Source: Clostridia bacterium
GTDB taxonomy: Bacteria > Bacillota > Clostridia > Lachnospirales > Lachnospiraceae
Direction: 5' to 3'
Assembly: GCA_021201905.1 (NCBI GenBank)
Contig: JAJQEA010000126.1
Coordinates: forward strand, 1-38,339
Length of the DNA: 38,339 nucleotides
Shown here: one piece after another, positions 1 to 11,315 of the stretch
Numbering within the stretch: position 1 is the stretch's first letter
Layout of the letters: each line of letters starts with the position of its first letter
Notes under the pieces: model-generated
Databases searched by the model: none
What the model saw: only the letters and a program-made list of their open reading frames with translations
Told to the model about the DNA's origin: nothing
Position numbers and translations under genes: made by a program

Positions 1-447
1 ACTAAATACCGGGTATCCGGCGGGCGCCGGCTTGCTGCGGGTAAAAACTCGGTACGCAGAACAGAATTATATTTCGGGTTCATTCCATGGAAGCCTGCCC
101 CCCCCCCCCCCGACCTGCCGGTTGAGGATATGGATTTATGCGTCATTGTTTCAAATGCCCTGGATAATGCAATCCAGGCGTGTTTAAAAGTAAAGCATTG
201 TCAGCCCGATATTGAGATTACCATAAAAGTACGCCATCAGTTTTTGCTGGTGGAAGTCACCAATACAACGCTGTCCATGGATGGACCGGAGCCTGGGACG
301 GGCCTTAAAAATATTTTCAGCGCGGCGGAAAAATACCAGGGCACAACGGAAATCGGCACGGATAACGGGCGCTTCCGCATCAGCGTGTTACTTTGCCTGG
401 AGACAGACCGCCTGCCGGATACGAAGCGGAAGCAACCGTTCACGTAA
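1..447 (+). pseudogene. GHKL sensor histidine kinase, 3' part, frame broken at a C14 tract
   Basis: This is the C-terminal part of an AgrC-like GHKL kinase; the 5' end lies outside the window. From base 2 the frame reads LNTGYPA, then LLRVKTRYAEQ, then FHGSLP, which fits the segment before the N-box in this family. After the run of C at 98-111 the matching continuation, DLPVEDMDLCVIVSNALDNA, is in another frame (codons from 112). The N-box (NALDNAIQAC) and G-box (GTGLKNIFSAAEKY) are intact. Twelve or fifteen C would give one open frame, fourteen does not. The stop is at 445-447. Its final codons overlap the operator and promoter of the next gene. Known for the family: such kinases sense extracellular peptides and phosphorylate a LytTR regulator. 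No regulator gene for this copy is inside the window. Whether the break is phase variation, mutation or sequencing error cannot be told. Confidence 0.8.
98..111 (+). repeat. Homopolymer of 14 C inside kinase gene
   Basis: Fourteen consecutive C lie between codons for SLP and DLPVED of the GHKL kinase. A tract of this length is prone to replication slippage. It sits exactly where the two kinase frames meet, so its length sets whether the ATPase domain is translated. Confidence 0.9.
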
Positions 448-483
448 CAGGGCTTACTTTATTCGGAGTGCGTGCGATATAAT
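414..483 (+). promoter_or_regulatory. Putative LytTR operator and promoter, copy A
   Basis: Two 9-bp boxes, GCCGGATAC (414-422) and ACCGTTCAC (435-443), are separated by 12 bp, the 21-bp period typical of LytTR regulators such as AgrA and ComE. The second box fits the known LytTR consensus well, the first poorly. A perfect TATAAT lies at 478-483 but the -35 position (455-460) has no consensus, as expected for an activator-dependent promoter. The boxes overlap the last codons of the upstream kinase. About 70 bp of this element recurs at 1846-1915. Confidence 0.6.
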
Positions 484-534
484 ATATGATACGAACTATT
501 TTCCTTCTAACACGCACAGGAGGTGACAAATATC

Positions 535-1749
535 ATGTATGGTATAAACTGCATGATTCCGAATTATGCTCAGATGTATGACAGATGGCTGGCCGGCATT
601 CTGCATAACTATTCCAGCCGTATGAAAGAGCAGACAGAAGCGCTTACCAGCTATGAGCGCGCTTCCAAAGAATTTTTTTCTGAGTTTGATTCTGCATTTG
701 GCCAGTTGAAAGCGGCATCCTCGGCCCTGAAATTATTCAGCAGCGACAGTGTTTTCCGTCCCATGGGATACGGCAGCAGTAATTCCGGTGTGGCTGAGGT
801 GACACGGGATACCACAGTGGTCACAGGCCCCATTCATCTGGAGGTTGCGCAGACAGCAGCTTCCACCTCTTATGCTTCGAAAGCATTGGTTTCTTCGGAG
901 TACACGCTGCAGGGACAGCACACGCTTACCATCACCGGTTCCGGCGGAACCACCACGTCCATCCAAGTGGAATTCGATTCCGCAATAGATAATAAGACCA
1001 ACCTGAACCGGATGGCGGCAGCGCTGAATGAGGCAAATTCCGGTATTACTGCTTTTGTTTCCGAGGCAGACGGCGAGAGTACACTGCATTTTTCTTCCAA
1101 CAGAACAGGGACGGAGCATGGGTTTACCGCTGCGCTGTCCGGCGGAAGCGCTGTGACAATTGGTTTGGAAGAGACGGAGCAGGCCAGGAATGCCAGGTAT
1201 ACTGTGGACAACGGCGGGGAAATGGAGTCCCAAAGCAACATGATAGAACTGCTTGACGGCAATCTGGGCGTCACCCTCACGGGGACTGGAAGCGCGGATA
1301 TTGGCAGCAAGACAGCGGACCATACCCAGACCATGGATGGGGTAAAGAAATTTGCGGACAGTTATAACAACGTTTTAAACTTTCTGAACAAATACAAAAA
1401 TACCTCACCAACGCTTGGCAATTTAGCGTATTCCTATGCCGCCACACGTTTCCAGTCCGGAACCCTGTCCCGGATTGGCATTGATGTTGACAGCAGGGGC
1501 ATCCTTTCCGTAGACGAAGGCAGGCTTGGGGAGGCGTTCAGAAATAACCGCGGGGAAGTGGAAAATCTGCTGGGCGGCGCAGACGGCCTTGCTTACAGTA
1601 CTTATGCAAAAACCTTAAGTACCATGTTAAGTTCCAAAAATCTTTATCCCAAGGCGCCGGCCGTATCCCATTCCGGTTATAGGTACGGACCCCGCTGTAA
1701 CTATGAGAGATCGTATATAAGCGGTACCTTTTTCAATACACTGGCCTGA
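535..1749 (+). CDS. Orphan FliD-like (flagellar hook-associated protein 2-like) protein
   Basis: A 404-residue protein resembling a flagellar filament cap protein. Residues about 20-65 form a helical segment like the FliD N-terminus. A beta-rich middle follows, with a gtTTSIQVEFDSA-type stretch, INA-like helix (AAALNEANSGITAFVSEADG) and an ARNARYTVDNGG motif matching the FliD phrase for an internal domain. Near residues 280-300 a VKKFADSYNNVLNFLNKY segment resembles the start of the FliD C-terminal region. The start at 535 is chosen because AGGAGG (518-523) lies 11 bases upstream; a GTG at 523 overlaps that site. No flagellin, hook or motor gene is nearby. The gene follows a GHKL kinase and precedes two small unknown genes, so it may be an exported surface polymer or adhesin element under quorum-type control (inference). 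At about 400 residues it is shorter than many true FliD proteins. Confidence 0.7.
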   Translation: MYGINCMIPNYAQMYDRWLAGILHNYSSRMKEQTEALTSYERASKEFFSEFDSAFGQLKAASSALKLFSSDSVFRPMGYGSSNSGVAEVTRDTTVVTGPIHLEVAQTAASTSYASKALVSSEYTLQGQHTLTITGSGGTTTSIQVEFDSAIDNKTNLNRMAAALNEANSGITAFVSEADGESTLHFSSNRTGTEHGFTAALSGGSAVTIGLEETEQARNARYTVDNGGEMESQSNMIELLDGNLGVTLTGTGSADIGSKTADHTQTMDGVKKFADSYNNVLNFLNKYKNTSPTLGNLAYSYAATRFQSGTLSRIGIDVDSRGILSVDEGRLGEAFRNNRGEVENLLGGADGLAYSTYAKTLSTMLSSKNLYPKAPAVSHSGYRYGPRCNYERSYISGTFFNTLA

Positions 1750-1779
1750 ACGTTTTTTTGCAGGCGGACACTCTGCCTG

Positions 1780-1812
1780 GGCGGCTTTGAGAGAATCAAA
1801 GCCGCCGTTTTT
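1780..1812 (+). terminator. Rho-independent terminator after the FliD-like gene
   Basis: An 11-bp perfect stem GGCGGCTTTGA / TCAAAGCCGCC with a 5-base loop, followed by GTTTTT. It starts 31 bases after the stop codon, so the downstream genes need their own promoter, which is present at 1846-1915. Confidence 0.92.
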
Positions 1813-1845
1813 CTGCATCCTGACAAGGTGGCCTTACAGGCCTTT

Positions 1846-1915
1846 GCCGGATACGAAGCAGAAATAACCGTTCACGAAACAGGGCTTATTATGTGCAGAA
1901 TGCGTGCGATATAGT
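1846..1915 (+). promoter_or_regulatory. Putative LytTR operator and promoter, copy B
   Basis: This is a near copy of the element at 414-483, with the same boxes GCCGGATAC (1846-1854) and ACCGTTCAC (1867-1875) at a 21-bp period and the same 34-base gap to a -10 like TATAGT (1910-1915). The -35 position is again poor. It sits between the terminator at 1780-1812 and the gene at 2018, so the same regulator probably drives both transcription units. Confidence 0.6.
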
Positions 1916-2017
1916 GTAATATAGAAAGCTCTTTTGTCTTTCTGACTCTTGGGGGAAGGAGGCGGGATTGTCTAAGTTCTCAGATAAAATATTACAGAAA
2001 GAAAGGATGGAAACAAA

Positions 2018-2428
2018 ATGCCAATGCCAGTAAAACCGGGATATGTAAATCCCATGACAATGATGAAAACCAAAAAGACCGGATTGAAACCGGCAGGTAA
2101 AACACAGCAGGAAAGCAAAGGAAACAACAATGTAAAAAACCTTGAGACAAAGCAGCAGGGTCTTAAAAACCAGCTTCTGCTGATGAAAAGCACCACTTCA
2201 GGCAGCTCTGCGGGAACCAAGGAGTTGGAACAAAAGCTGGAGGAAATCTCCACAGAACTGAAGGCTGCAAAATCCCAGAATGTGCAGCCGGCAGAGACGC
2301 AGCCAATCAGGAAAAGATTCGACACATATGAGTCTGCCAAAGAAAAAGAGAAATCCAGCGGCCTTTACAAAATCCAGCAGGACAGGGATAAGCATAAGGT
2401 GGTATTTTCTCCCTATTCCGACCGTTAA
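2018..2428 (+). CDS. Small coiled-coil protein of unknown function
   Basis: A 136-residue, lysine- and glutamine-rich protein without signal peptide or membrane segment. Residues about 40-90 form a heptad-like helical region (KELEQKLEEISTELKAAKS). Residues about 102-132 carry a FDTYE...SSGLYKIQQD...KVVF motif. The same two elements, in the opposite order, occur in the protein at 3659-4177 on the other strand, so the two are probably paralogous. The start follows AGAAAGGATGGA. The gene at 2447 begins 18 bases after its stop, suggesting one operon. It could be a secreted or chaperone-like partner of the FliD-like protein, or resemble FlxA-like coiled-coil proteins, but I cannot assign a function. 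Confidence 0.7.
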   Translation: MPMPVKPGYVNPMTMMKTKKTGLKPAGKTQQESKGNNNVKNLETKQQGLKNQLLLMKSTTSGSSAGTKELEQKLEEISTELKAAKSQNVQPAETQPIRKRFDTYESAKEKEKSSGLYKIQQDRDKHKVVFSPYSDR

Positions 2429-2446
2429 AACGAAGGAGACGAGAAC

Positions 2447-3487
2447 ATGCAGATTGGAGAAAGCAGTATGTTTTTGGGGGTGTATTATGAGAGAAATGTG
2501 GATATATCACGCCATCAGGACATCATACAGGACAGGGAGCATGCAAACGCGCTGGTCAATAGCGCATCCGCTAAAAATACCATCCGGGAAGCAATCCGGG
2601 CCAAAGCAGCAGCTTCTGGCAGTTCCCCCGTAAGCTCCAATCAGGATACATACCAGCACAGCTCATCCGATTATATCATATTTGAGGATGATACTGAAAA
2701 TCTTTATGAACTGTATGCGCGGAAAAACAGGGAGCTGCAGGAACAGCACAGTGGTGATGTATTCTGGGGCAATGCCAAAAGCCAGTGGATGGTTTTCAGT
2801 GAAAAATTATACCAGAACGGTTTTTATGATAACATGTCCGACGATGAGGTGAAGAATTTTGAAGGTATGCTTGCGCATATTACGGCAGGCATGGATAATG
2901 TAAGCAAAATAAAATATTCGGAAGGAACCTCCATTGACTTCAACCGATACAATGACGCCACGTTTTCCGCCATGAATTCGGAAGAGGCAAAACTGGAACT
3001 GGAATCAGAGACAGCAGCACTCCACTTTTTCGGAGATCAATTTGTTGATAAAGAATATAAAGAGGAGTTTCTGAACATGGTGGATGAATTCCACTCCCAT
3101 AATAAGGGGATTCTAAAGGATTACCAGGGACCTCTTGAAGGGGCTGAGAAGGGCATTATGAAGCTGCAGGCAGATCCCGGGATGCGGGGACTGGCAGACA
3201 AGGATGCAGCCAGCTACTCTGGATATATGAATGGCCTGGTCCATACAGAGGAGGAGACAGACCTGTATCAAAAAGAAGTCACTGATCTGTTTCAAAAGCT
3301 ACAGGAACCCGAACGCAATCAGGCAGATATCTGGGAACAGCTGAAATTAGTGTATATAAAATATATTACAAAGGATACAGACCGGCCGGATATAAAAGAT
3401 CAGGCGTGGAGCAGGGCGGAGAGTACATTTAATCTAATGCAGGGGTATTGGTCTGAGTTACTGGGGGCCGTATCCTTAAATCCATAG
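2447..3487 (+). CDS. Hypothetical protein, 346 aa, operon partner of the coiled-coil protein
   Basis: An acidic, mostly helical soluble protein that I do not recognise. It has no signal peptide and no membrane segment. The N-terminus (MQIGESSMFLGVYYER) is hydrophobic but short; about residues 40-75 are Ser/Ala/Asn rich and probably disordered; the rest has long charged helices, with a repeated EE/K pattern near residues 180-290. GAAGGAGACGAGAAC gives a good ribosome site before the ATG. It sits 18 bases downstream of the 136-residue gene and shares its promoter. Its 3' end converges with the opposite module; no clear terminator is seen in the 171-base gap. Confidence 0.75.
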   Translation: MQIGESSMFLGVYYERNVDISRHQDIIQDREHANALVNSASAKNTIREAIRAKAAASGSSPVSSNQDTYQHSSSDYIIFEDDTENLYELYARKNRELQEQHSGDVFWGNAKSQWMVFSEKLYQNGFYDNMSDDEVKNFEGMLAHITAGMDNVSKIKYSEGTSIDFNRYNDATFSAMNSEEAKLELESETAALHFFGDQFVDKEYKEEFLNMVDEFHSHNKGILKDYQGPLEGAEKGIMKLQADPGMRGLADKDAASYSGYMNGLVHTEEETDLYQKEVTDLFQKLQEPERNQADIWEQLKLVYIKYITKDTDRPDIKDQAWSRAESTFNLMQGYWSELLGAVSLNP

Positions 3488-3658
3488 CTGCCGGCTCTTT
3501 TTAGGGATGCCTCCGGGCGGCTGTATCCTTCCCATACCGGACGTTCAGGCGAAGAGGGCAGAGGGGCAGATACAGGATATGTGGCGGACGTTGGTTTTAG
3601 ATTTATCACAACGCCGCCATATATCTTATATGGAGTACAAAATGGGCATGGCAGTCCA

Positions 3659-4177
3659 TCAGCCCTGGGTATATTCCGCATGTTGTTTTCTGTAGGAATC
3701 ATTGTCCTTCATTTTGAGTTCGCCTTCGATTTGCTGCAATTCCCTGTATAGCTTACGCTGTTGGATTGGGTCATTCCCGGCCTTTGCAAGCTGTTTCTCA
3801 ATGCTTGCTTTCTCTTTCTTTAGCTTTTTGATTTCCGCATCCACCTTATCCGTATTTACGGTGCATTTCTGTGCTTCCTCTTTTTCAGGCGCACCGGCTG
3901 CTTTTTCACCCTCATCAACTGCTTTTTCGCCCTCATCGGGTGCGTCAAAGATAATCTTCGGATTTCCGTTCTCGTCCGTGCCCTGCCGGTACAGCCCCGT
4001 CGAAACTGGTTCTTCTCCTGGAATATATTCATCAACATTTGGGGGCAGGGAGCTGCCGGATGCCGTGGATTCCTTTTCCTCTTGCACAGCCTGCTGCACC
4101 TGCTCTTGCTTTTTCAGATGCGCAAGGGATGCGGGCTGCGTGTCCATGTGAACAGCTGGTCCTATATTCGTTATCAT
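3659..4177 (-). CDS. Coiled-coil protein, paralogue of the 136-aa protein, with permuted order
   Basis: A 172-residue protein. After an N-terminal glutamine-rich stretch it has a VDEYIPGEEPVSTGLYRQG...NPKIIFDAP segment, two GEKA repeats, and a C-terminal coiled coil (KVDAEIKKLKKEKASIEKQL through QQIEGELKMKDND). The Y...SGLY...D...K..F motif and the coiled coil are the same two elements seen in the protein at 2018-2428, but in reverse order. I choose the ATG at 4177 because GGAGG (4186-4190) lies 8 bases upstream; a second ATG at 4183 is too close to it. The gene follows the GHKL kinase in the same direction with an own promoter at 4218-4285, suggesting it is an output of that system. Confidence 0.75.
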   Translation of the reverse strand: MITNIGPAVHMDTQPASLAHLKKQEQVQQAVQEEKESTASGSSLPPNVDEYIPGEEPVSTGLYRQGTDENGNPKIIFDAPDEGEKAVDEGEKAAGAPEKEEAQKCTVNTDKVDAEIKKLKKEKASIEKQLAKAGNDPIQQRKLYRELQQIEGELKMKDNDSYRKQHAEYTQG

Positions 4178-4217
4178 ATTCATATCCTCCTTTGCAGTAC
4201 GGTTCGTTCGCAATTCC

Positions 4218-4285
4218 ATTGTAAATTTTAACAGATAAATTTCAAGTCATATGTATTGAAATGTCGTCTGGCTGTATTGAAATGT
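4218..4285 (-). promoter_or_regulatory. ComE/LytTR-type direct repeat and promoter for the coiled-coil gene
   Basis: On the minus strand two identical boxes ACATTTCAA (4277-4285 and 4256-4264) are separated by exactly 12 bp. This is the architecture known for ComE/BlpR-type LytTR regulators. A -35 TTGAAA (4240-4245), 16-bp spacer and -10 TACAAT (4218-4223) follow, with 10 bases between the proximal box and the -35. The boxes lie in the last codons of the kinase gene and encode the repeat ISIQPDDISIH. Confidence 0.65.
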
Positions 4286-5552
4286 TCAGCAAAATATTCA
4301 GGAGGAATCTTTCATTTTTATATTCTGCTGTTATGGAACCGCCGTATTTTTCGGCAACTGTTTTTATATTGTTAAGTCCGATTCCGAATTTGGGAACCCA
4401 AGGAGACTCCCTTCGGCAGGTGTTCTCAAATTCCAGCATATAAAAGTCGCCTTGCCGTTCCCCAAGAATATGAATGTCTCTGACTCCATCAGGCTTTCCC
4501 ATGCACGCCTGTATTGCATTGTCCAGCGCATTGGCGAAGATAATGCACCAATCCAGATCCGTGAGGGTACAGGATGATGGTAATGTGATTGATACATCCA
4601 GCTCAATTCCATTGGCGGTACACAGCGCCAATTTATTTTCCAACAGAATATCCACTACGGGTTTTCCGGTAGAAAAAGGAAACGACAATTTCTCCGTGGC
4701 AGCGGCCAGTTTTTGTAAATAGATTTGTGCCTGCTCTATGTTACCTGCGTTCAAAAAGCCATGTATGACAGACAGATGATTTTTAATATCATGCCTGAAC
4801 GCCCTGGTATTTTCGTAACGTGCCTGCGCTTCTGCGACGTAGACTTTCTGAGCATGGACTTCCTGGGTCATGGACACTAACGCTGTTTGCGCTCTGAATC
4901 CGGCACAAACACGCTGGTACGCATAGAGAGAAGAAAATAGAACCAGCAGTCCGAGCGCTTGCAGCGTAAACAGGGTAAGGTGTTTCTGGGCTTCGATGGG
5001 GGCGGGAACGGTTGACACATTTCCGTAATTCGTGGAAAGCAAATAGAGCTCGATTGCGAACAGGAACAAACACGGCGGCAGCAGCAGCCATGGTGTATTC
5101 TCGTTTTGTATATCTTTTAAGGAAAACCGCGTGAATATGAGCCAATAGCCCCCATAGCACAGGGTCAAAGCAAGTAATGTTGGCAGAATGGCCATAGCGC
5201 AAAGCAATATGCTTGATTGGACCCCAAGCGGCATCAGCATCAGAAGTGAGCCAATCAGGCCAAATGAAAGCTGACTGACATACACGGTCATAACTGCCAG
5301 CACACAGCATGTGGAACGGCTGCCTTTCAGCATAAACCGAATCATGGCATACATAAACAGTAAATTGATAGGTATGCCAATATAATTATAGCGGGTTGGA
5401 ATCATGGTGCAGATGAAGTACAGCAGCAAAAAATAGATGAGAAAATTCCGTATTCTCATATGGATATTGGCAATCCGGCCAACAAAGAAAAGCTGCAAAA
5501 CACTTTGGCCGGCAAGCGCCAGAACATTAAGCCAGAATTCAAACCAATCCAC
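4242..5552 (-). CDS. GHKL sensor histidine kinase, AgrC-like
   Basis: A 436-residue membrane kinase. The first roughly 215 residues form six or seven hydrophobic helices. A coiled linker follows, then the H-box FRHDIKNHLSVIHGF (His near residue 253), the N-box FANALDNAIQAC and the G-box GIGLNNIKTVAEKYGG. This fits the family that detects extracellular peptides and phosphorylates LytTR regulators. The gene overlaps the upstream regulator gene by 14 bases, so the pair is co-translated. No AgrB/AgrD-like peptide maker was found beside it. Its last codons contain the operator of the next gene. Confidence 0.93.
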   Translation of the reverse strand: MDWFEFWLNVLALAGQSVLQLFFVGRIANIHMRIRNFLIYFLLLYFICTMIPTRYNYIGIPINLLFMYAMIRFMLKGSRSTCCVLAVMTVYVSQLSFGLIGSLLMLMPLGVQSSILLCAMAILPTLLALTLCYGGYWLIFTRFSLKDIQNENTPWLLLPPCLFLFAIELYLLSTNYGNVSTVPAPIEAQKHLTLFTLQALGLLVLFSSLYAYQRVCAGFRAQTALVSMTQEVHAQKVYVAEAQARYENTRAFRHDIKNHLSVIHGFLNAGNIEQAQIYLQKLAAATEKLSFPFSTGKPVVDILLENKLALCTANGIELDVSITLPSSCTLTDLDWCIIFANALDNAIQACMGKPDGVRDIHILGERQGDFYMLEFENTCRRESPWVPKFGIGLNNIKTVAEKYGGSITAEYKNERFLLNILLNISIQPDDISIHMT

Positions 5553-6264
5553 TGTATGGCCGCCTCTCCTTCATGTGCCGCAAAAGTGCCTGTGTAAGCT
5601 CCCTCTCTCTCAGGCGAGAGACAGGGATTTCGCTGCCCTCTGACAAGGTGACACGCCCGGCATGACACCCGCGCACATGGTCTAAATTAACAAGATAGCT
5701 TCTGTGACACCTAAAAAACCGGCTGTCCATCTGTTTTTCTAAATGTTCCAGTTTATCGTAATAATCGATGGTTATCCCGCCGTGCTGGTGTAGGTAAATT
5801 TTCCGGCCTAAAACCTCACAGTATAGGATCTGGGAAAAAGGAAAAACCTGACATGTATTCCCTCTCTGGACCGTGATGGTATGTTCCCTCCTGTGCTGCA
5901 ATGTATCAAACGCCCTGTCCAGTGTACGGCGAAAACGGGCCTCGTCCAGCGGCTTTACAAGATAATCATAGGCCTCAACCTCAAATGAATCAAACACACT
6001 TTCCTTTAGAATGGTATTAAAAATAATAATTCCGCGGAATCCGTGCTGCCGTAAACGCTTTGCTGTTTCCATGCCGTCTGGCTGTGCTATCTGAATGTCC
6101 AGAAACAGTATGTCAAACAATTGTTTGCTGTCAAGAAGGGCTTTTCCGCTGTCAAATCTTAAAATATCGTACGCTATCTGTTTTTCTTCCGCATATCTTG
6201 AAAGCCGCCCGGCAACATCCTCCAACATAAAAGGCTCGTCGTCGCATACGGCGAATTGTATCAT
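5539..6264 (-). CDS. LytTR-family response regulator (AgrA/ComE type)
   Basis: A 241-residue DNA-binding regulator. The receiver domain (about 1-125) has the acidic pair CDDEP, the phosphoacceptor aspartate in DILFLDIQ and the conserved KPLD lysine. The LytTR domain follows (about 135-240) with HHREHTITVQRG-like start, FFRCHRSYLVNLDHV and PVSRLRERELT. It is expected to activate the promoter at 4218-4285 and perhaps those at 414-483 and 1846-1915 (inference). The ATG at 6264 has GGGGTG six bases upstream; ATG 6270 and GTG 6273 are alternatives that would sit on that site. It overlaps the kinase gene. Confidence 0.93.
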   Translation of the reverse strand: MIQFAVCDDEPFMLEDVAGRLSRYAEEKQIAYDILRFDSGKALLDSKQLFDILFLDIQIAQPDGMETAKRLRQHGFRGIIIFNTILKESVFDSFEVEAYDYLVKPLDEARFRRTLDRAFDTLQHRREHTITVQRGNTCQVFPFSQILYCEVLGRKIYLHQHGGITIDYYDKLEHLEKQMDSRFFRCHRSYLVNLDHVRGCHAGRVTLSEGSEIPVSRLRERELTQALLRHMKERRPYSGLV

Positions 6265-6293
6265 TTTCATCACCCCGCTGATTCTGTCTTTTT

Positions 6294-6322
6294 AATATAC
6301 TAAATGTTTGATATGACGGCAA
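6294..6322 (-). promoter_or_regulatory. Sigma-A type promoter of the regulator-kinase pair
   Basis: On the minus strand TTGCCG (6317-6322), a 17-bp spacer and TATATT (6294-6299) lie 30 bases before the start at 6264. Confidence 0.6.
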
Positions 6323-6444
6323 CGCTTCTGATATGAAATGCTGCTTTTTTGTAGTGGAATGTTTTGGTTATGCAGGTAAGTGCTACCCAAGGAGATTTTT
6401 CGATGAAAAATGCCCGCTGAAAGGTGGACATAAAAAACAGATGG

Positions 6445-6924
6445 TTAAGGTTTCTTCTTTTTTCTCTGCTTATCCACATACATCCGTTTATCTGCAATTT
6501 TCATCAGCTGCTCATGATTTTCGCCATCCTCAGGGAAAACCGCGATTCCAATGCTGATGCCCACCGCATCCTCTGCGGTATCGTCACCCAGAGTGTAAGG
6601 ACGGCTGATGGACCTGCATATCATTTCGGCAATCCTCTGCGCTTCTCCGTTGTCAGCCTTCTGTCTGAGAATCATGACGAATTCATCACCGCCTATTCTG
6701 GACAGGATGTCAGAGGGACCCAGGAATTCCTCCAAACGCCAGGCCACCTCCATCAGGAGCTGGTCGCCGCAGCCATGCCCCAGAAGATCGTTTACTTTCT
6801 TGAAGCCGTCCAAATCCATGTACAAGAGCATGAAGGGCTGGGAGCCCTTGAGGCAGGCCTTTTCCAAATACAGCTTCAGCCACCTCCGGTTATAGGTTCC
6901 CGTCAGCTCGTCCGTGACCGCCAT
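6445..6924 (-). CDS. GGDEF domain, C-terminal part of a split diguanylate cyclase
   Basis: A complete GGDEF domain: VTDELTGTYNRR at the front, DLDGFKKVNDLLGHGCGD, the active-site motif RIGGDEF and the closing ADKRMYVDKQ. Such domains make cyclic di-GMP from GTP. No I-site RxxD is evident just before GGDEF. The piece lacks a sensor and a convincing ribosome site of its own. It is in the -1 frame relative to the CHASE protein upstream; one more A in the A7 run (T7 at 6944-6950 on the plus strand) would join them into one protein of 445 residues reading MNKKKREQIHHMAVTDEL. So it is best read as the 3' half of one gene. Confidence 0.88.
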   Translation of the reverse strand: MAVTDELTGTYNRRWLKLYLEKACLKGSQPFMLLYMDLDGFKKVNDLLGHGCGDQLLMEVAWRLEEFLGPSDILSRIGGDEFVMILRQKADNGEAQRIAEMICRSISRPYTLGDDTAEDAVGISIGIAVFPEDGENHEQLMKIADKRMYVDKQRKKKKP

Positions 6925-7781
6925 GTGATGAATCTGCTCCCTCTTTTTTTATTCATATAGACCAGAGCTCCGCACAGGAGGCTTATGAGAAGGACAATCA
7001 CGGCCTCCGCCGCCATTTCCTTCCAGGGGAGCCATCCTGCCTTGGACTGGAGTGTCAGTGTCCATGTGTGGTTGGGGACATGAATGATATTGTCAATGGT
7101 TTTCTGTCCTGTGAATCCCGGGGACTGGGTAATCACCACCGGCTGCTCGTCCACCATGCAATGGAGGCTGTATTCATAGCCAGACTGCACCAACTCCTCC
7201 AGATGGATAGATTCGATGGCATCCGGGAGATCCAATATGATGACGGAAAAACCCCAGAAATACTCCTGATTATCCTCGCCTGTCAGGAAAATGGGGTTTC
7301 TGGCCGCCAGTCCAAAGCCGCCCTGGCTCAAGTCGTATGGCCCTGATATGGCAATCTCCTTGGTATCCATGGCCAGACGCGCATCCCTCTCACGTTTGGG
7401 ATTTTGGAAGATATTGTCGCCAATGACCGCCTCATTACCCTCCAGGGGATAGCAGTAGCGTACAGTCCCTCCTGGCAGGTATTGGACGGCCCGTATACCG
7501 GGGCTGTCCATCATGGACCTTGCCAAATCCTTAAACGTCTCCTCAGGAACATTTCCATTGCTGGTGATGATGATGGATTCAAGGATATCCGTTTTGTGGA
7601 ACAGGGAATTTAAAAGTGCTTCTGTTCTCTCCGCATATATTTTTGTCTCACGCCGCGCCTCAGCCTTCTTAAGCCTGGCCTCCTGTATCCCTGCAAATAG
7701 AATCAGCATCCCCAGAAAAATGGACAGGATTACGGCTGTCAGCACAAAATAGCGCAGGATTCCCTTTATTCCTTTATGCAT
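6903..7781 (-). CDS. CHASE-domain membrane sensor, N-terminal part of a split diguanylate cyclase
   Basis: The 292-residue reading frame has a membrane helix at about 10-30, an extracytoplasmic CHASE domain (about 60-250) with the typical phrases YCYPLEGNEAVIGDNIFQNP, ISGPYDLSQGG and AARNPIFL, and a second helix at about 255-277. The last residues after YMNKKR are out of frame. GGGGAGGTGG precedes the ATG. CHASE domains bind small ligands outside the cell; here the signal should reach the GGDEF domain encoded just downstream. The break is at the A7 run 6944-6950. Confidence 0.87.
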   Translation of the reverse strand: MHKGIKGILRYFVLTAVILSIFLGMLILFAGIQEARLKKAEARRETKIYAERTEALLNSLFHKTDILESIIITSNGNVPEETFKDLARSMMDSPGIRAVQYLPGGTVRYCYPLEGNEAVIGDNIFQNPKRERDARLAMDTKEIAISGPYDLSQGGFGLAARNPIFLTGEDNQEYFWGFSVIILDLPDAIESIHLEELVQSGYEYSLHCMVDEQPVVITQSPGFTGQKTIDNIIHVPNHTWTLTLQSKAGWLPWKEMAAEAVIVLLISLLCGALVYMNKKRGSRFITWRSRTS

Positions 7782-8112: not shown

Positions 8113-8787
8113 ATGACTGATGCAATGGAGGAGAGCAAGGTGGAAATCAATTTAAGCTATGAGCAGCTCAATAACGATTATAGTATGCTGATGGGAGTTT
8201 TAGGTGCCAGTGTCAGTAAGCACCTTGTAGACGAGCATCTCACATGTATCTGGGCCAACAACTATTATTATGAGCTGATTGGTTATACCAAGGCTGAGTA
8301 TGAAGCCAGATTTCACAATCAATGTGACCGGTATTTTGAAACGAATCCGGAGGGGTGGAGAATCCTTACAAAAAAGATAGAGTCCAGCCTCGCGGGAGGG
8401 GAAAAGGGATACTCGGTTTATTTGCCCATGATTCATCCGGATGGATCCCCGTTCTGGATCAAGCTGCAGGCTGTCTTTACAGATGAGTGCATGGATGGGC
8501 ACAAGGTCGCCTACACCACCATGGTAGATGTGACGGAAATGATGCTGGCTCAGAAAGAGCAGATGCGTGCGCAGCAAAACTATGAAACCATGACGCGCGA
8601 GCAGGAAATGCTTATGAGCGCGCTCAATGTCAGTGTCAGCTCCCATTTGATAGACGAGCACTTTACCTGTATCTGGGCCAATGAGTTTTACTACAAGCTG
8701 ATCGGCTATCCAAAACAAAATATGAGTCCCTGTTCCATAACCATGCCGATGAATATTACAGCAATAACCCGGAGGGCTGGGACCTGA
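8113..8787 (+). CDS. Multi-PAS hybrid histidine kinase, N-terminal part (frameshifted)
   Basis: One full PAS domain (about residues 25-150: VDEHLTCIWANNYYYELIGY through TTMVDVTE) and the first half of a second, near-identical one. The frame leaves the family pattern after IGYPK and stops at 8787. One extra A within AAAACAAAA (8712-8720) restores KYESLFHNHADEYY and joins the next reading frame, giving a protein of about 1067 residues. There is no membrane segment, so the sensor is cytoplasmic. ATG 8113 lacks a strong ribosome site; an internal GTG preceded by GGAGGAG would give a start a few codons later. Confidence 0.85.
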   Translation: MTDAMEESKVEINLSYEQLNNDYSMLMGVLGASVSKHLVDEHLTCIWANNYYYELIGYTKAEYEARFHNQCDRYFETNPEGWRILTKKIESSLAGGEKGYSVYLPMIHPDGSPFWIKLQAVFTDECMDGHKVAYTTMVDVTEMMLAQKEQMRAQQNYETMTREQEMLMSALNVSVSSHLIDEHFTCIWANEFYYKLIGYPKQNMSPCSITMPMNITAITRRAGT

Positions 8788-8807
8788 TTGCAAAGAAGGT
8801 TGCCTCT

Positions 8808-11315
8808 GTGCTGGAGCGGGGGGAGGACAAATATGAACTGATTGTCCCCATGAAATATGAGGACGGGTCCAGCTATTGGGTCAAGCTGGTCAGCTTTTTT
8901 ACAGATGAATATGTGGATGGCTACCGCACCTCCTACACGGTCATGACGGATGTGACAGAACTTGTGCGGACGAAGAATGAACTGGAAATGATGATGCGGG
9001 CCATGAAGGTAAGCGTCAGCAAGCATAAGGTGGATGAGCATTTCTCCGTGGTCTGGGCCAATGATTTCTATTATCAGCTCATAGGGTATACAAAACCCGA
9101 GTACGAGGCCAGGTTCCATAATCATTGTGATGAGTATTTCATGGACAACCTGGAGACCTGGGACGTTCTCTGCAATAAAATAGATAGCATGTTCGCGGCG
9201 GGGGAGGACTGCTTTGAGACATATCTGCCGCTGAAGCTGCCGGACGGATCCTCGCGGTGGGTGAAGCTGGTGGATTTCTTTACAAGCGAATATCAGGACG
9301 GGAAACAGCTGGCCTACACCACCATGATTGATGTCACCGAACTGCTGCAGGCCCAGCAGGATAAAAGTGTTGCCTATGAACACGTCCCCGGTTTCATTGT
9401 CAAGTACCGGGTTTTACCGGACCGGCTCATCATGATTGATGCAAGCAGCCGCATCCAAGATTTTTTTGAGGTGGATCTGGACCATCTGCCGGATACTGAT
9501 TTTATGGGGGTTTTACAGCCGGAGAGCCGTCTGGTGATAGAGTCCCTGCTTCCGGAATTGCAAAGGAGAGAGACGCTGGAACTGGATGAGTCCATCCGTG
9601 TCAAGGATAAGCACGGCAGGGACTGCTGGCTTCAGCTCCACGGCACCTGTATTGATTCCATTGCCGATGATCCGGTTTATCTGGTGGTGCTTATCGATAT
9701 TACGGATATTACCGAGCTTAGAAAACTCCAGCGCCAGCTGGAGGAGCGCACGAAAATGCTCAATACGGCACTGGAGGCCGCTAAGATGGCGAACACGGCC
9801 AAGTCAGACTTCCTTTCCCGGATGAGCCATGATATCCGGACTCCCATGAACGCCATTGCCGGTATGACGGAGATTGCCGATGCCCACCTCCAGGATCCGG
9901 AGCGTGTAAGAGACTGCCTGAACAAAATCCGGCTCTCCAGCCACCACCTTCTGGGCCTGATCAACGATGTGCTGGACATGTCGCAGATTGAAAACGGTAA
10001 GGTATCCATACATATGGCCCCTCTTTCCCTGCCTGATTTAGTCAGGGAGATTATCATGATTACGCTGCCCAATGTCCGTGCAAAGAAGCAGATGTTCAAG
10101 GTCCATCTGAGAAATGTGGGCCAGGAGCATTTTTACAGCGATGAGCTGCGTTTGCGGCAGATTTTGTTGAACCTCTTATCCAACGCCTCCAAATTCACGC
10201 CTGAATACGGACACATTGTATTTGAGGTGGAGCAGTCGGCGGATAGCTCTGCGATCTCCTTTACGATCTCGGATACCGGGCCCGGCATCAGGGAGGATTT
10301 TCAGGAACATATTTTTGAGACATTTGCACGGGAACGCGACAGCCGCACGGACCGGATTGAGGGCAGCGGCCTTGGACTCGCCATTGTAAAACGGCTCACG
10401 GAACTGATGGATGGCAGCATTAAGCTGACCAGCCTGCCAGGACAGGGGACCACGTTCCATGTGACGCTGCCCATGCAGCAGATCCGGGAGGCTGCTCCAC
10501 AGCGCGTTGGTGAAAATGGAATCATTCTGTTGGCGGACACAGATCCGGTTGTCCTGGAGGATGCCCGGAAGGCCCTGCGATGCCTTGGAACGGAGGCAGA
10601 CTGTGCAAGAAGTGTCAGCGAGGCGTTGTCCCATATCCGTAACAGGAACCAGGCCGGGGAGAGCTATCAGATGATCGTCCTGGATTGGGAACTGTTCTGG
10701 CTGGATGCTCCGGGCGCGCCGGAGCAGGTCCGGAGGGAAGCGTTCGGGGCTCCGCTGCTGATTATATCCGCCTACGATTGGAGCGAGATTAAAAACAGTA
10801 TGACTGCCGGTATCGATGGATATATAGAGAAGCCCTTTTTCCAGTCCACATTCAGGAACTGTATGATGAAGTATTTAAAGGGTGAGGAGACAGCCAGGCA
10901 AGAAGCCAGAACCTATGATTTGCATGATAAAACAATCCTGCTTGTGGAGGATAACGAGCTGAATCGGGAAATTGCCATGGAGCTTTTGGGTGGTTTTGGA
11001 GCCAGGCTGGAGGCAGCGGTAAATGGTGAGGAGGCGGTCAGGCTTTTTCAGGCAAGCATTCCCGGCTATTATTCCCTGATTTTAATGGATATCCAGATGC
11101 CGGTGATGAACGGTTATGAGGCTGCCCGTGCAATCCGGGCGCTAAAACGCCCGGATGCCGCAACAGTACCAATTATTGCAATGACAGCCGACGCCTTTGC
11201 TGAGGATATCCGGAACGCGGAGGCCGCCGGAATGAACGGTCATATGGCGAAACCTTTGAGTTTTGATACCCTTGTATTGGAAATTGAACGATATTTAGTC
11301 TCCGCAGTCCGATAA
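8808..11315 (+). CDS. Multi-PAS hybrid histidine kinase, C-terminal part
   Basis: Continues the frameshifted gene from 8113; the first residue is an internal codon, not a true start. In order it has the end of PAS 2, PAS 3 (VDEHFSVVWANDFYYQLIGY), a divergent PAS 4, a dimerisation helix with the H-box SRMSHDIRTPMNAIAG (near residue 340), ATPase motifs LLSNASKF, ISDTGPGI and GSGLGLAIVKRL, a divergent receiver (VLDWEL, ISAYD, EKPF) and a canonical receiver with VEDNELNR, LILMDIQMPVMNG and KPLS. It is a cytoplasmic phosphorelay kinase. The output is unknown; the next gene, 15 bases on, makes or breaks cyclic di-GMP, so the two may act in one pathway (inference). Confidence 0.92.
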   Translation: MLERGEDKYELIVPMKYEDGSSYWVKLVSFFTDEYVDGYRTSYTVMTDVTELVRTKNELEMMMRAMKVSVSKHKVDEHFSVVWANDFYYQLIGYTKPEYEARFHNHCDEYFMDNLETWDVLCNKIDSMFAAGEDCFETYLPLKLPDGSSRWVKLVDFFTSEYQDGKQLAYTTMIDVTELLQAQQDKSVAYEHVPGFIVKYRVLPDRLIMIDASSRIQDFFEVDLDHLPDTDFMGVLQPESRLVIESLLPELQRRETLELDESIRVKDKHGRDCWLQLHGTCIDSIADDPVYLVVLIDITDITELRKLQRQLEERTKMLNTALEAAKMANTAKSDFLSRMSHDIRTPMNAIAGMTEIADAHLQDPERVRDCLNKIRLSSHHLLGLINDVLDMSQIENGKVSIHMAPLSLPDLVREIIMITLPNVRAKKQMFKVHLRNVGQEHFYSDELRLRQILLNLLSNASKFTPEYGHIVFEVEQSADSSAISFTISDTGPGIREDFQEHIFETFARERDSRTDRIEGSGLGLAIVKRLTELMDGSIKLTSLPGQGTTFHVTLPMQQIREAAPQRVGENGIILLADTDPVVLEDARKALRCLGTEADCARSVSEALSHIRNRNQAGESYQMIVLDWELFWLDAPGAPEQVRREAFGAPLLIISAYDWSEIKNSMTAGIDGYIEKPFFQSTFRNCMMKYLKGEETARQEARTYDLHDKTILLVEDNELNREIAMELLGGFGARLEAAVNGEEAVRLFQASIPGYYSLILMDIQMPVMNGYEAARAIRALKRPDAATVPIIAMTADAFAEDIRNAEAAGMNGHMAKPLSFDTLVLEIERYLVSAVR

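Follow-up and report, generated by a model that had tools for sequence, protein, structure and literature searches.

The window analysed here is a complete contig (C193, 38,339 bp) of a draft Lachnospiraceae assembly of 431 contigs, and its left end carries two converging sets of genes associated with LytTR/GHKL two-component signalling. From the left end, the plus strand encodes the 3' part of a GHKL kinase, a FliD-like protein, and proteins of 136 and 346 amino acids (aa); the minus strand encodes, converging on this set, a LytTR response regulator, a GHKL kinase, and a 172-aa protein. Two such converging gene sets had been described in a first-pass annotation, and the open reading frames (ORFs) and domain matches confirmed them. 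The FliD-like, 136-aa, 346-aa, and 172-aa proteins are referred to below as the cargo. All four cargo frames, as well as the right regulator and the right kinase, are intact, and gene starts are those of a simple ORF caller. The features are listed below by position and strand.

1..447, plus strand: left GHKL kinase, 3' part, ORF (HATPase_c_5, E 4e-17; stop codon 445-447)
413..491, plus strand: putative composite promoter, copy 1 (GCCGGATAC at 414-422, ACCGTTCAC at 435-443, CGATAT at 475-480)
535..1749, plus strand: FliD-like protein, 404 aa (FliD_C, E 4.5e-13)
1845..1923, plus strand: putative composite promoter, copy 2 (GCCGGATAC at 1846-1854, ACCGTTCAC at 1867-1875, CGATAT at 1907-1912)
2018..2428, plus strand: 136-aa protein (coiled-coil-like stretch, then a GLY..D motif common to the 172-aa family)
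2447..3487, plus strand: 346-aa protein (unnamed family; relatives found in other genomes)
3659..4177, minus strand: 172-aa protein (LytTR/GHKL-linked 172 family)
4218..4245, minus strand: likely sigma-A-like promoter of the 172-aa gene, TTGAAA-16 bp-TACAAT (read from the sequence)
4242..5552, minus strand: right GHKL sensor kinase, 436 aa (HATPase_c_5, E 4.9e-16, SPOB_a; hydrophobic N-terminal half by hydropathy)
4257..4285, minus strand: predicted right LytTR operator, ACATTTCA-N13-ACATTTCA, inside the kinase 3' end
5539..6273, minus strand: right LytTR response regulator (REC and LytTR domains)
6334..6362, minus strand: second operator copy with 2 mismatches, upstream of the regulator (the assembly has four 2-mismatch matches, including this one)

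Regulatory elements of the two modules

Both sets have regulatory elements that begin within the 3' end of their kinase gene, as had been proposed: a 79-bp element on the left and a 13-bp direct repeat on the right. The right operator is part of this repeat, which is perfect and has a 21-bp period, and none of 300 doublet shuffles was as good. Its exact pattern has this sole match in the 5.85-Mb assembly, and with up to 3 mismatches there are 76 matches, vs 49 for the reversed pattern. The repeat is present in four of the six 172 loci examined, the window included; in L102, L103, and L104 it recurs at the same place with 0-2 mismatches in total and nowhere else on those stretches, and it is absent from L100 and L105. 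The same stretch also encodes the conserved kinase tail, which may account for part of the conservation. The 2-mismatch copy upstream of the right regulator makes autoregulation possible. LytTR regulators recognise pairs of imperfect direct repeats with a gap of about 12 bp (PMC4064291, text available in part), and a twin direct-repeat layout is found on both sides of the window, perfect on the right and imperfect on the left.

The left 79-bp element is present twice, with 65/79 positions identical between the copies, and its 22-bp core ACCGTTCACGWAACAGGGCTTA occurs in only these two places in the assembly when up to 3 mismatches are allowed. In each copy the half-sites lie 21 bp apart, the second one starting 40 bp and ending 31 bp before CGATAT, a sigma-28-type -10 (CGATA[AT]). 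In copy 1, the pair CCGGATACG/CCGTTCACG matches at 6/9 positions and has its second unit 39 bp before CGATAT. Neither copy has a TAAA -35 at 15-17 bp; TTAC and TTAT stand at 15 bp instead. Sigma-28 promoters of Eubacterium/Roseburia and Butyrivibrio have the -10 CCGATAT/MCGATAa (PMC3720852, in the part available); the left -10 is alike, and LytTR-type half-sites stand upstream in place of the TAAA -35.

The spacing of about 40 bp was first seen in L085, L101, and L102. All nine promoters with CGATA were then checked, of which L087 and L011 fitted too and L015 and L084 did not. After the rule had been seen, 40 DUF6033 loci were added, 20 from the highest-scoring distinct genomes and a further 20 with lower scores picked by hand; G334, which carries the 346 family, was passed over in this choice. 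The half-site ACCGTTCAC itself lies 41 bp before CGATA in G292, G336, and G207 (L139, L142, and L141), compared with 40 bp in both window copies. Across 62 loci (the 40 new and 22 older ones), exact 9-mer pairs followed by CGATA[AT] at 35-43 bp number ten, and other 7-bp offset bins hold 0-3. All ten sites lie 35-195 bp before a response-regulator/LytTR gene (eight) or a cargo gene (two), and four of them are in the new loci (L139, L142, L147, and L156). When 58 upstream regions were chosen regardless of any -10 (35 of LytTR genes and 23 of cargo genes, one of the latter, L011 11312, added after the exact-pair count), 14 had an exact repeat, and nine of these had CGATA[AT] at 36-44 bp; L139 and L142 are near-identical, and merging them gives 8/13. 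The window 172 gene, L079, L014, the L076 regulator, L103, and L104 do not fit the composite-promoter rule. Separately, L011 (2129-14951) has two LytTR systems and three composite promoters, whose half-sites are of two types (GTCGTTTTA and TATTCACGT), beside several uncharacterised proteins, the longest having 583 aa.

In total, the loci contain 135 exact pairs at any position, 19 of which have a CGATA or TATAAT box within about 30-58 bp. These counts bear on an alternative that we consider unlikely, in which ordinary LytTR/GHKL modules activate sigma-A promoters, CGA precedes TATAAT by chance, and the cargo is intracellular or unrelated to flagella. TATAAT coincides with the flagellar-type box in L139, L142, L088, L101, and left copy 1, the right promoter is sigma-A-like, and six of the 19 pairs have TATAAT alone, including one 253 bp before the L084 346 gene. 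However, nine of the 19 have CGATA[AT] alone and four have both boxes; the 9/14 proportion among repeats picked regardless of the -10 also speaks against this alternative, as does the finding that the cargo families track the flagellar export gene product FlhA (below).

The left LytTR/GHKL module claimed by the first-pass annotation is only partly in the window: the kinase 3' part is there, and the LytTR regulator is not. A candidate lies on contig C124 (L069) of the same assembly, where a LytTR gene, encoding both receiver and LytTR domains, precedes a kinase 5' part cut off by the contig end. The C124 stretch before a terminal poly-C aligns ungapped with window positions 3-95 (75/93 identical, as derived from the score). 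C124 appears to adjoin C193, so the left LytTR regulator and the kinase 5' part are probably on C124. The left and right regulators share 36% identity over 229 aa, and the left kinase part is identical to the right kinase at 36/90 residues. In a regulator tree, where L032 denotes the left and L056 the right regulator, both fall in one clade with the regulators of L102, L103, and L105 (support 0.844); those of the 172 loci L100 and L101 belong to a different clade. A run of 14 C at window positions 98-111 splits the left kinase, the reading frame seeming to differ before and after it, and C124 ends in a still longer poly-C run (L069 1-54). This tract may be phase-variable or a sequencing artefact.

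Cargo families and their link to flagella

The FliD-like protein scores 49.6 bits with FliD_C (cut-off 25.4) and matches solved FliD chains (E 5.8e-7), and FliD_N stays below its cut-off (22.8 vs 24.8 bits). The assembly's own FliD has 854 aa, and its contig also holds fliS and a second, 438-aa FliD-like gene, whose product is the only other match to the window protein in the assembly at E 0.1. According to the alignment, neither short protein has the C-terminal segment present in the 854-aa FliD. In canonical FliD this segment has a role in sitting on the filament; because it is missing, we avoid the name cap for the window protein. The window protein thus shares FliD_C and similarity to solved FliD, and differs from FliD in lacking the C-terminal segment and in not being encoded beside fliS. 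The second short FliD-like gene of the assembly (L017 6052-7368) lies directly after fliD and fliS, and its product ends in FNTLA like the window protein.

The cargo of the two sets had been described as paralogous, which holds for one motif common to the 136- and 172-aa proteins; the FliD-like and 346-aa proteins have no right-hand counterpart. Six sequences define the 172-family motif, DEYIPxEK...GLYxLGQDENGNPKI, accompanied by a coiled-coil-like stretch with one invariant Cys. BLASTP of the 136- against the 172-aa protein gave E 0.11 over only 20 residues. A profile of the motif, which contains the window's own 172-aa protein, scored 16.7 bits on the 136-aa protein with 0/5000 shuffles as high; the coiled-coil profile stood out less (7.2 bits, 27/5000 shuffles as high). 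The 136-aa protein has stretches resembling both elements, in reversed order. The 346-aa protein has no Pfam or NCBIfam match above cut-off; its predicted structure has a mean predicted local distance difference test (pLDDT) of 66.8, with residues 1-92 mostly below 50 and a helical C-terminal part that gave no clear match. By hydropathy, the cargo proteins have no signal peptides or membrane segments; in this rough test, N-terminal values of those examined were at most 0.78, vs 1.98 for a Sec-type control.

The 172 family had matches in 10 of the 195 related genomes searched, and seven were clear, the window's own included, after G014, G423, and G477 (E 0.005-0.009) were dropped. In all seven clear loci the 172 gene lies 3' of a GHKL kinase gene, directly after it in G001, G016, G057, G013, G414, and the window, and with two small genes between in G096; a LytTR gene precedes the kinase in six of the seven. 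In G013 (L104 7749-8006) the regulator is truncated and its LytTR domain is gone, with the operator intact, and G414 (L105 8285-10693), of the window's own genus, has a degenerate 172 module. Judging by these two, signal-regulated cassettes may be lost easily. They could also be taken, together with the contig break and the poly-C run in the left kinase, as signs that the window holds only decaying remnants, that is, functionless duplicated modules with a broken kinase in a draft genome. We regard this as very improbable in view of the intact frames of the four cargo genes, the right regulator, and the right kinase, and of operators and protein motifs that recur across genera.

The 346 family was found by profile search in 7/397 family genomes, and scanning the named species collection with a pattern gave 10 loci, in Lachnospiraceae and Clostridiaceae metagenome-assembled genomes (MAGs) and in Clostridium sp. 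MSJ-8. Merging L081 with L011 and L083 with L013 (same contigs), and L082 with L087 (two contig ends of one MAG), left 15 loci, and 14 once L013, a 4.2-kb contig uninformative for linkage, was set aside. A broken fragment in G333 (E 8.4e-13; 0.0034 in the locus search) is in the genome tally and not among the loci, which also exclude a second G193 fragment. Of the 14 informative loci, 10 have LytTR at a distance of at most 5 kb, compared with about 3% expected by chance by our own arithmetic from the LytTR density of the assembly (16 matches in 5.85 Mb); L079 and L080 are near-identical, come from two MAGs, and were counted separately, and merging them gives 9/13. The smallest unit is LytTR-GHKL-346 (L079 and L080). 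The first-pass annotation had named homologues without linked LytTR/GHKL genes as a refuting result, which was observed in part: four of the 14 loci (L012, L015, L084, and L086) have no LytTR in the stretch examined; the 346 genes of two of them, L084 and L086, have a plain sigma-28-like promoter instead (TAAA-N15/16-CGATAA/T). In G276 (L076), one run of genes encodes an FlxA-like protein (1.3e-21), a frame-broken FliD-like protein, a 346 relative, LytTR, GHKL, and AgrB (1.1e-35). DUF6033 or DUF3879 proteins are among the neighbours in L013, L086, and L088, and in L101 of the 172 set. FlxA-like (PF14282), DUF6033, and DUF3879 proteins thus adjoin cargo relatives. None of the corresponding models is matched by the window proteins, and the 136- and 172-aa proteins are absent from the FlxA-like profile matches at E 1.

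FlhA (PF00771) is encoded in 209/397 family genomes and in the window's assembly. It is present in all seven family genomes that carry the 346 family (hypergeometric P 0.011) and in 9/9 named genomes tested, two of which repeat the first set, giving 14/14. The five further genomes with the 172 family (G001, G013, G016, G057, and G096) are all positive, so that 19/19 genomes tested with either family have FlhA, vs the background of 209/397; G414 was counted as a 172 locus and is outside this tally. Of the 135 genomes with DUF6033 (PF19498), 133 have FlhA (Fisher P 2e-47), and the family looks linked to flagella. The relatedness of the sampled genomes inflates these co-occurrence P values.

The same FlhA co-occurrence and the absent Sec signals would fit equally well if the cargo were intracellular flagellar regulators or chaperones, such as coiled-coil anti-sigma or export-blocking proteins, which are switched by the signal and not exported. 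The small size and coiled-coil-like stretches of the 136- and 172-aa proteins would suit such a role. However, the left cargo includes a relative of FliD, which is a filament-type export substrate and decreases, like FlgK and FlgL, in the secretome of a fliK mutant (PMC12109265, available in part), and uncharacterised adjoining ORFs reach 583-872 aa. We hold this explanation to be rather improbable. DUF proteins are not mentioned by that word in the available part of the same source.

Proposed control of the cargo

The modules, repeats, spacing, and co-occurrence described above can be read directly from the sequence; activation and export, by contrast, are inferred, and so are the signal and the choice of sigma factor. 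We propose, as the probable explanation, that two signal-gated modules activate their adjoining cargo, that the left promoters also need the flagellar sigma factor, and that the products are probably flagellar export cargo. Each AgrA/AgrC-like module (LytTR regulator and GHKL kinase) would sense its own signal and activate its own operator and adjoining cargo, the phosphorylated regulator binding a pair of half-sites separated by two helical turns (21-bp period). In the right module, the half-sites would act just upstream of the ordinary-looking 172-aa promoter, and the regulator gene has a weaker copy of its own; on the left, the FliD-like, 136-aa, and 346-aa genes would be transcribed from the two composite-promoter copies. 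The left half-sites stand before a flagellar -10 without a good -35; therefore left transcription should depend on the signal as well as on active flagellar sigma. Active flagellar sigma would mark a cell with hook and basal body finished, and the left cargo would be made only then and with the signal. Regulation of the cargo by the LytTR modules is well supported as a prediction from gene order and operators. The products have no Sec signal and are of families whose genomes contain flagellar export genes; most likely they leave the cell through the flagellar apparatus or become attached to it, and flagellar export would be the simplest use of such timing. The suggestion of a signal-controlled surface or secretion system fits in that regulators, operators, and cargo recur together across genera and that flagellar export genes are present in the genomes that carry the cargo families; its export part is the more conjectural one.

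Several observations weigh against this explanation. The left half-sites agree at only 6/9 positions, and other pairs come out ahead of them in a plain repeat scan. CGATATAAT, found in several sites and in left copy 1, also contains the sigma-A TATAAT, and the right (172) promoter has no flagellar -10. The spacing effect fades with looser repeats: in the new loci, 11 pairs matching at at least 8/9 positions fall at 37-43 bp vs 2-8 elsewhere, and 31 at at least 7/9 vs 17-33 elsewhere. The older loci give 11 vs 2-5 (at least 8/9) and 30 vs 11-18 (at least 7/9), and they include those that gave the spacing rule. Enrichment of CGATA[AT] upstream of cargo is modest (9/25 vs 22/167, P 0.008). LytTR was found in 10/40 DUF6033 loci, two among the 20 best-scoring and eight among the other 20, and the window's own genome has no DUF6033 match. 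Because the sampled genomes are related, the FlhA counts are not independent.

The GHKL kinase and LytTR regulator pairing is that of known systems such as AgrA/AgrC, PlnC/PlnD, and VirR; ComE is part of a LytTR-GHKL signalling system as well. Unlike in AgrA/AgrC-type systems, the targets here are flagellum-linked, several promoters have a flagellar-type -10, and there is no agrB match. With the L076 AgrB as query, phmmer found no match in the window or C124, and none in six 172 loci either; the earlier description of the system as peptide-sensing was therefore not borne out by an AgrB match in the window or C124, short AgrD-like ORFs not having been searched for. In G276 (L076), AgrB is encoded directly after the kinase, which suggests a peptide signal there. 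A LytTR regulator of Clostridium difficile agr affects flagellar genes and flagellation, and that effect is a genome-wide one on core flagellar genes, in contrast to the local cassettes, orphan cargo, and composite promoter here (PMC3754575, text available in part). LytTR systems, sigma-28 promoters, and FliD-like proteins are each known, and their joining as found here was not met in the literature searched: titles and abstract starts of open-licence papers on LytTR, FlxA-like, flagellar, FliD, and Lachnospiraceae subjects described no such arrangement, and no open-licence paper naming DUF6033, DUF3879, or DUF4885 was found.

More tentatively, and with somewhat less than even confidence, motile Lachnospiraceae might have widespread cassettes, each with its own LytTR/GHKL pair, in which a private operator about 40 bp before a flagellar -10 allows AND-gated export of chosen non-motility proteins (346, 172, DUF6033, and FliD-like) by cells whose flagellum is complete, in response to an outside signal. 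If this were true, the DUF6033, 346-aa, and 172-aa families would be placed in the late flagellar regulon under outside signals, and commensal flagella could carry or export signal-chosen proteins, a new mode of controlling flagellar load. The sequence rule (twin repeat, about 40 bp, CGATA) could then be used to seek further cassettes and regulators.

Other genes of the window

To the right of the two sets, two ORFs of 292 and 159 aa overlap in different frames at 6445-7781 on the minus strand and, judged by eye, might be the sensor and GGDEF parts of one diguanylate cyclase, with a possible frameshift near a T run at about 6940. On the plus strand, a large PAS/hybrid histidine-kinase-like gene, also recognised by eye, occupies 8113-11315 in two frames and is split at about 8790.

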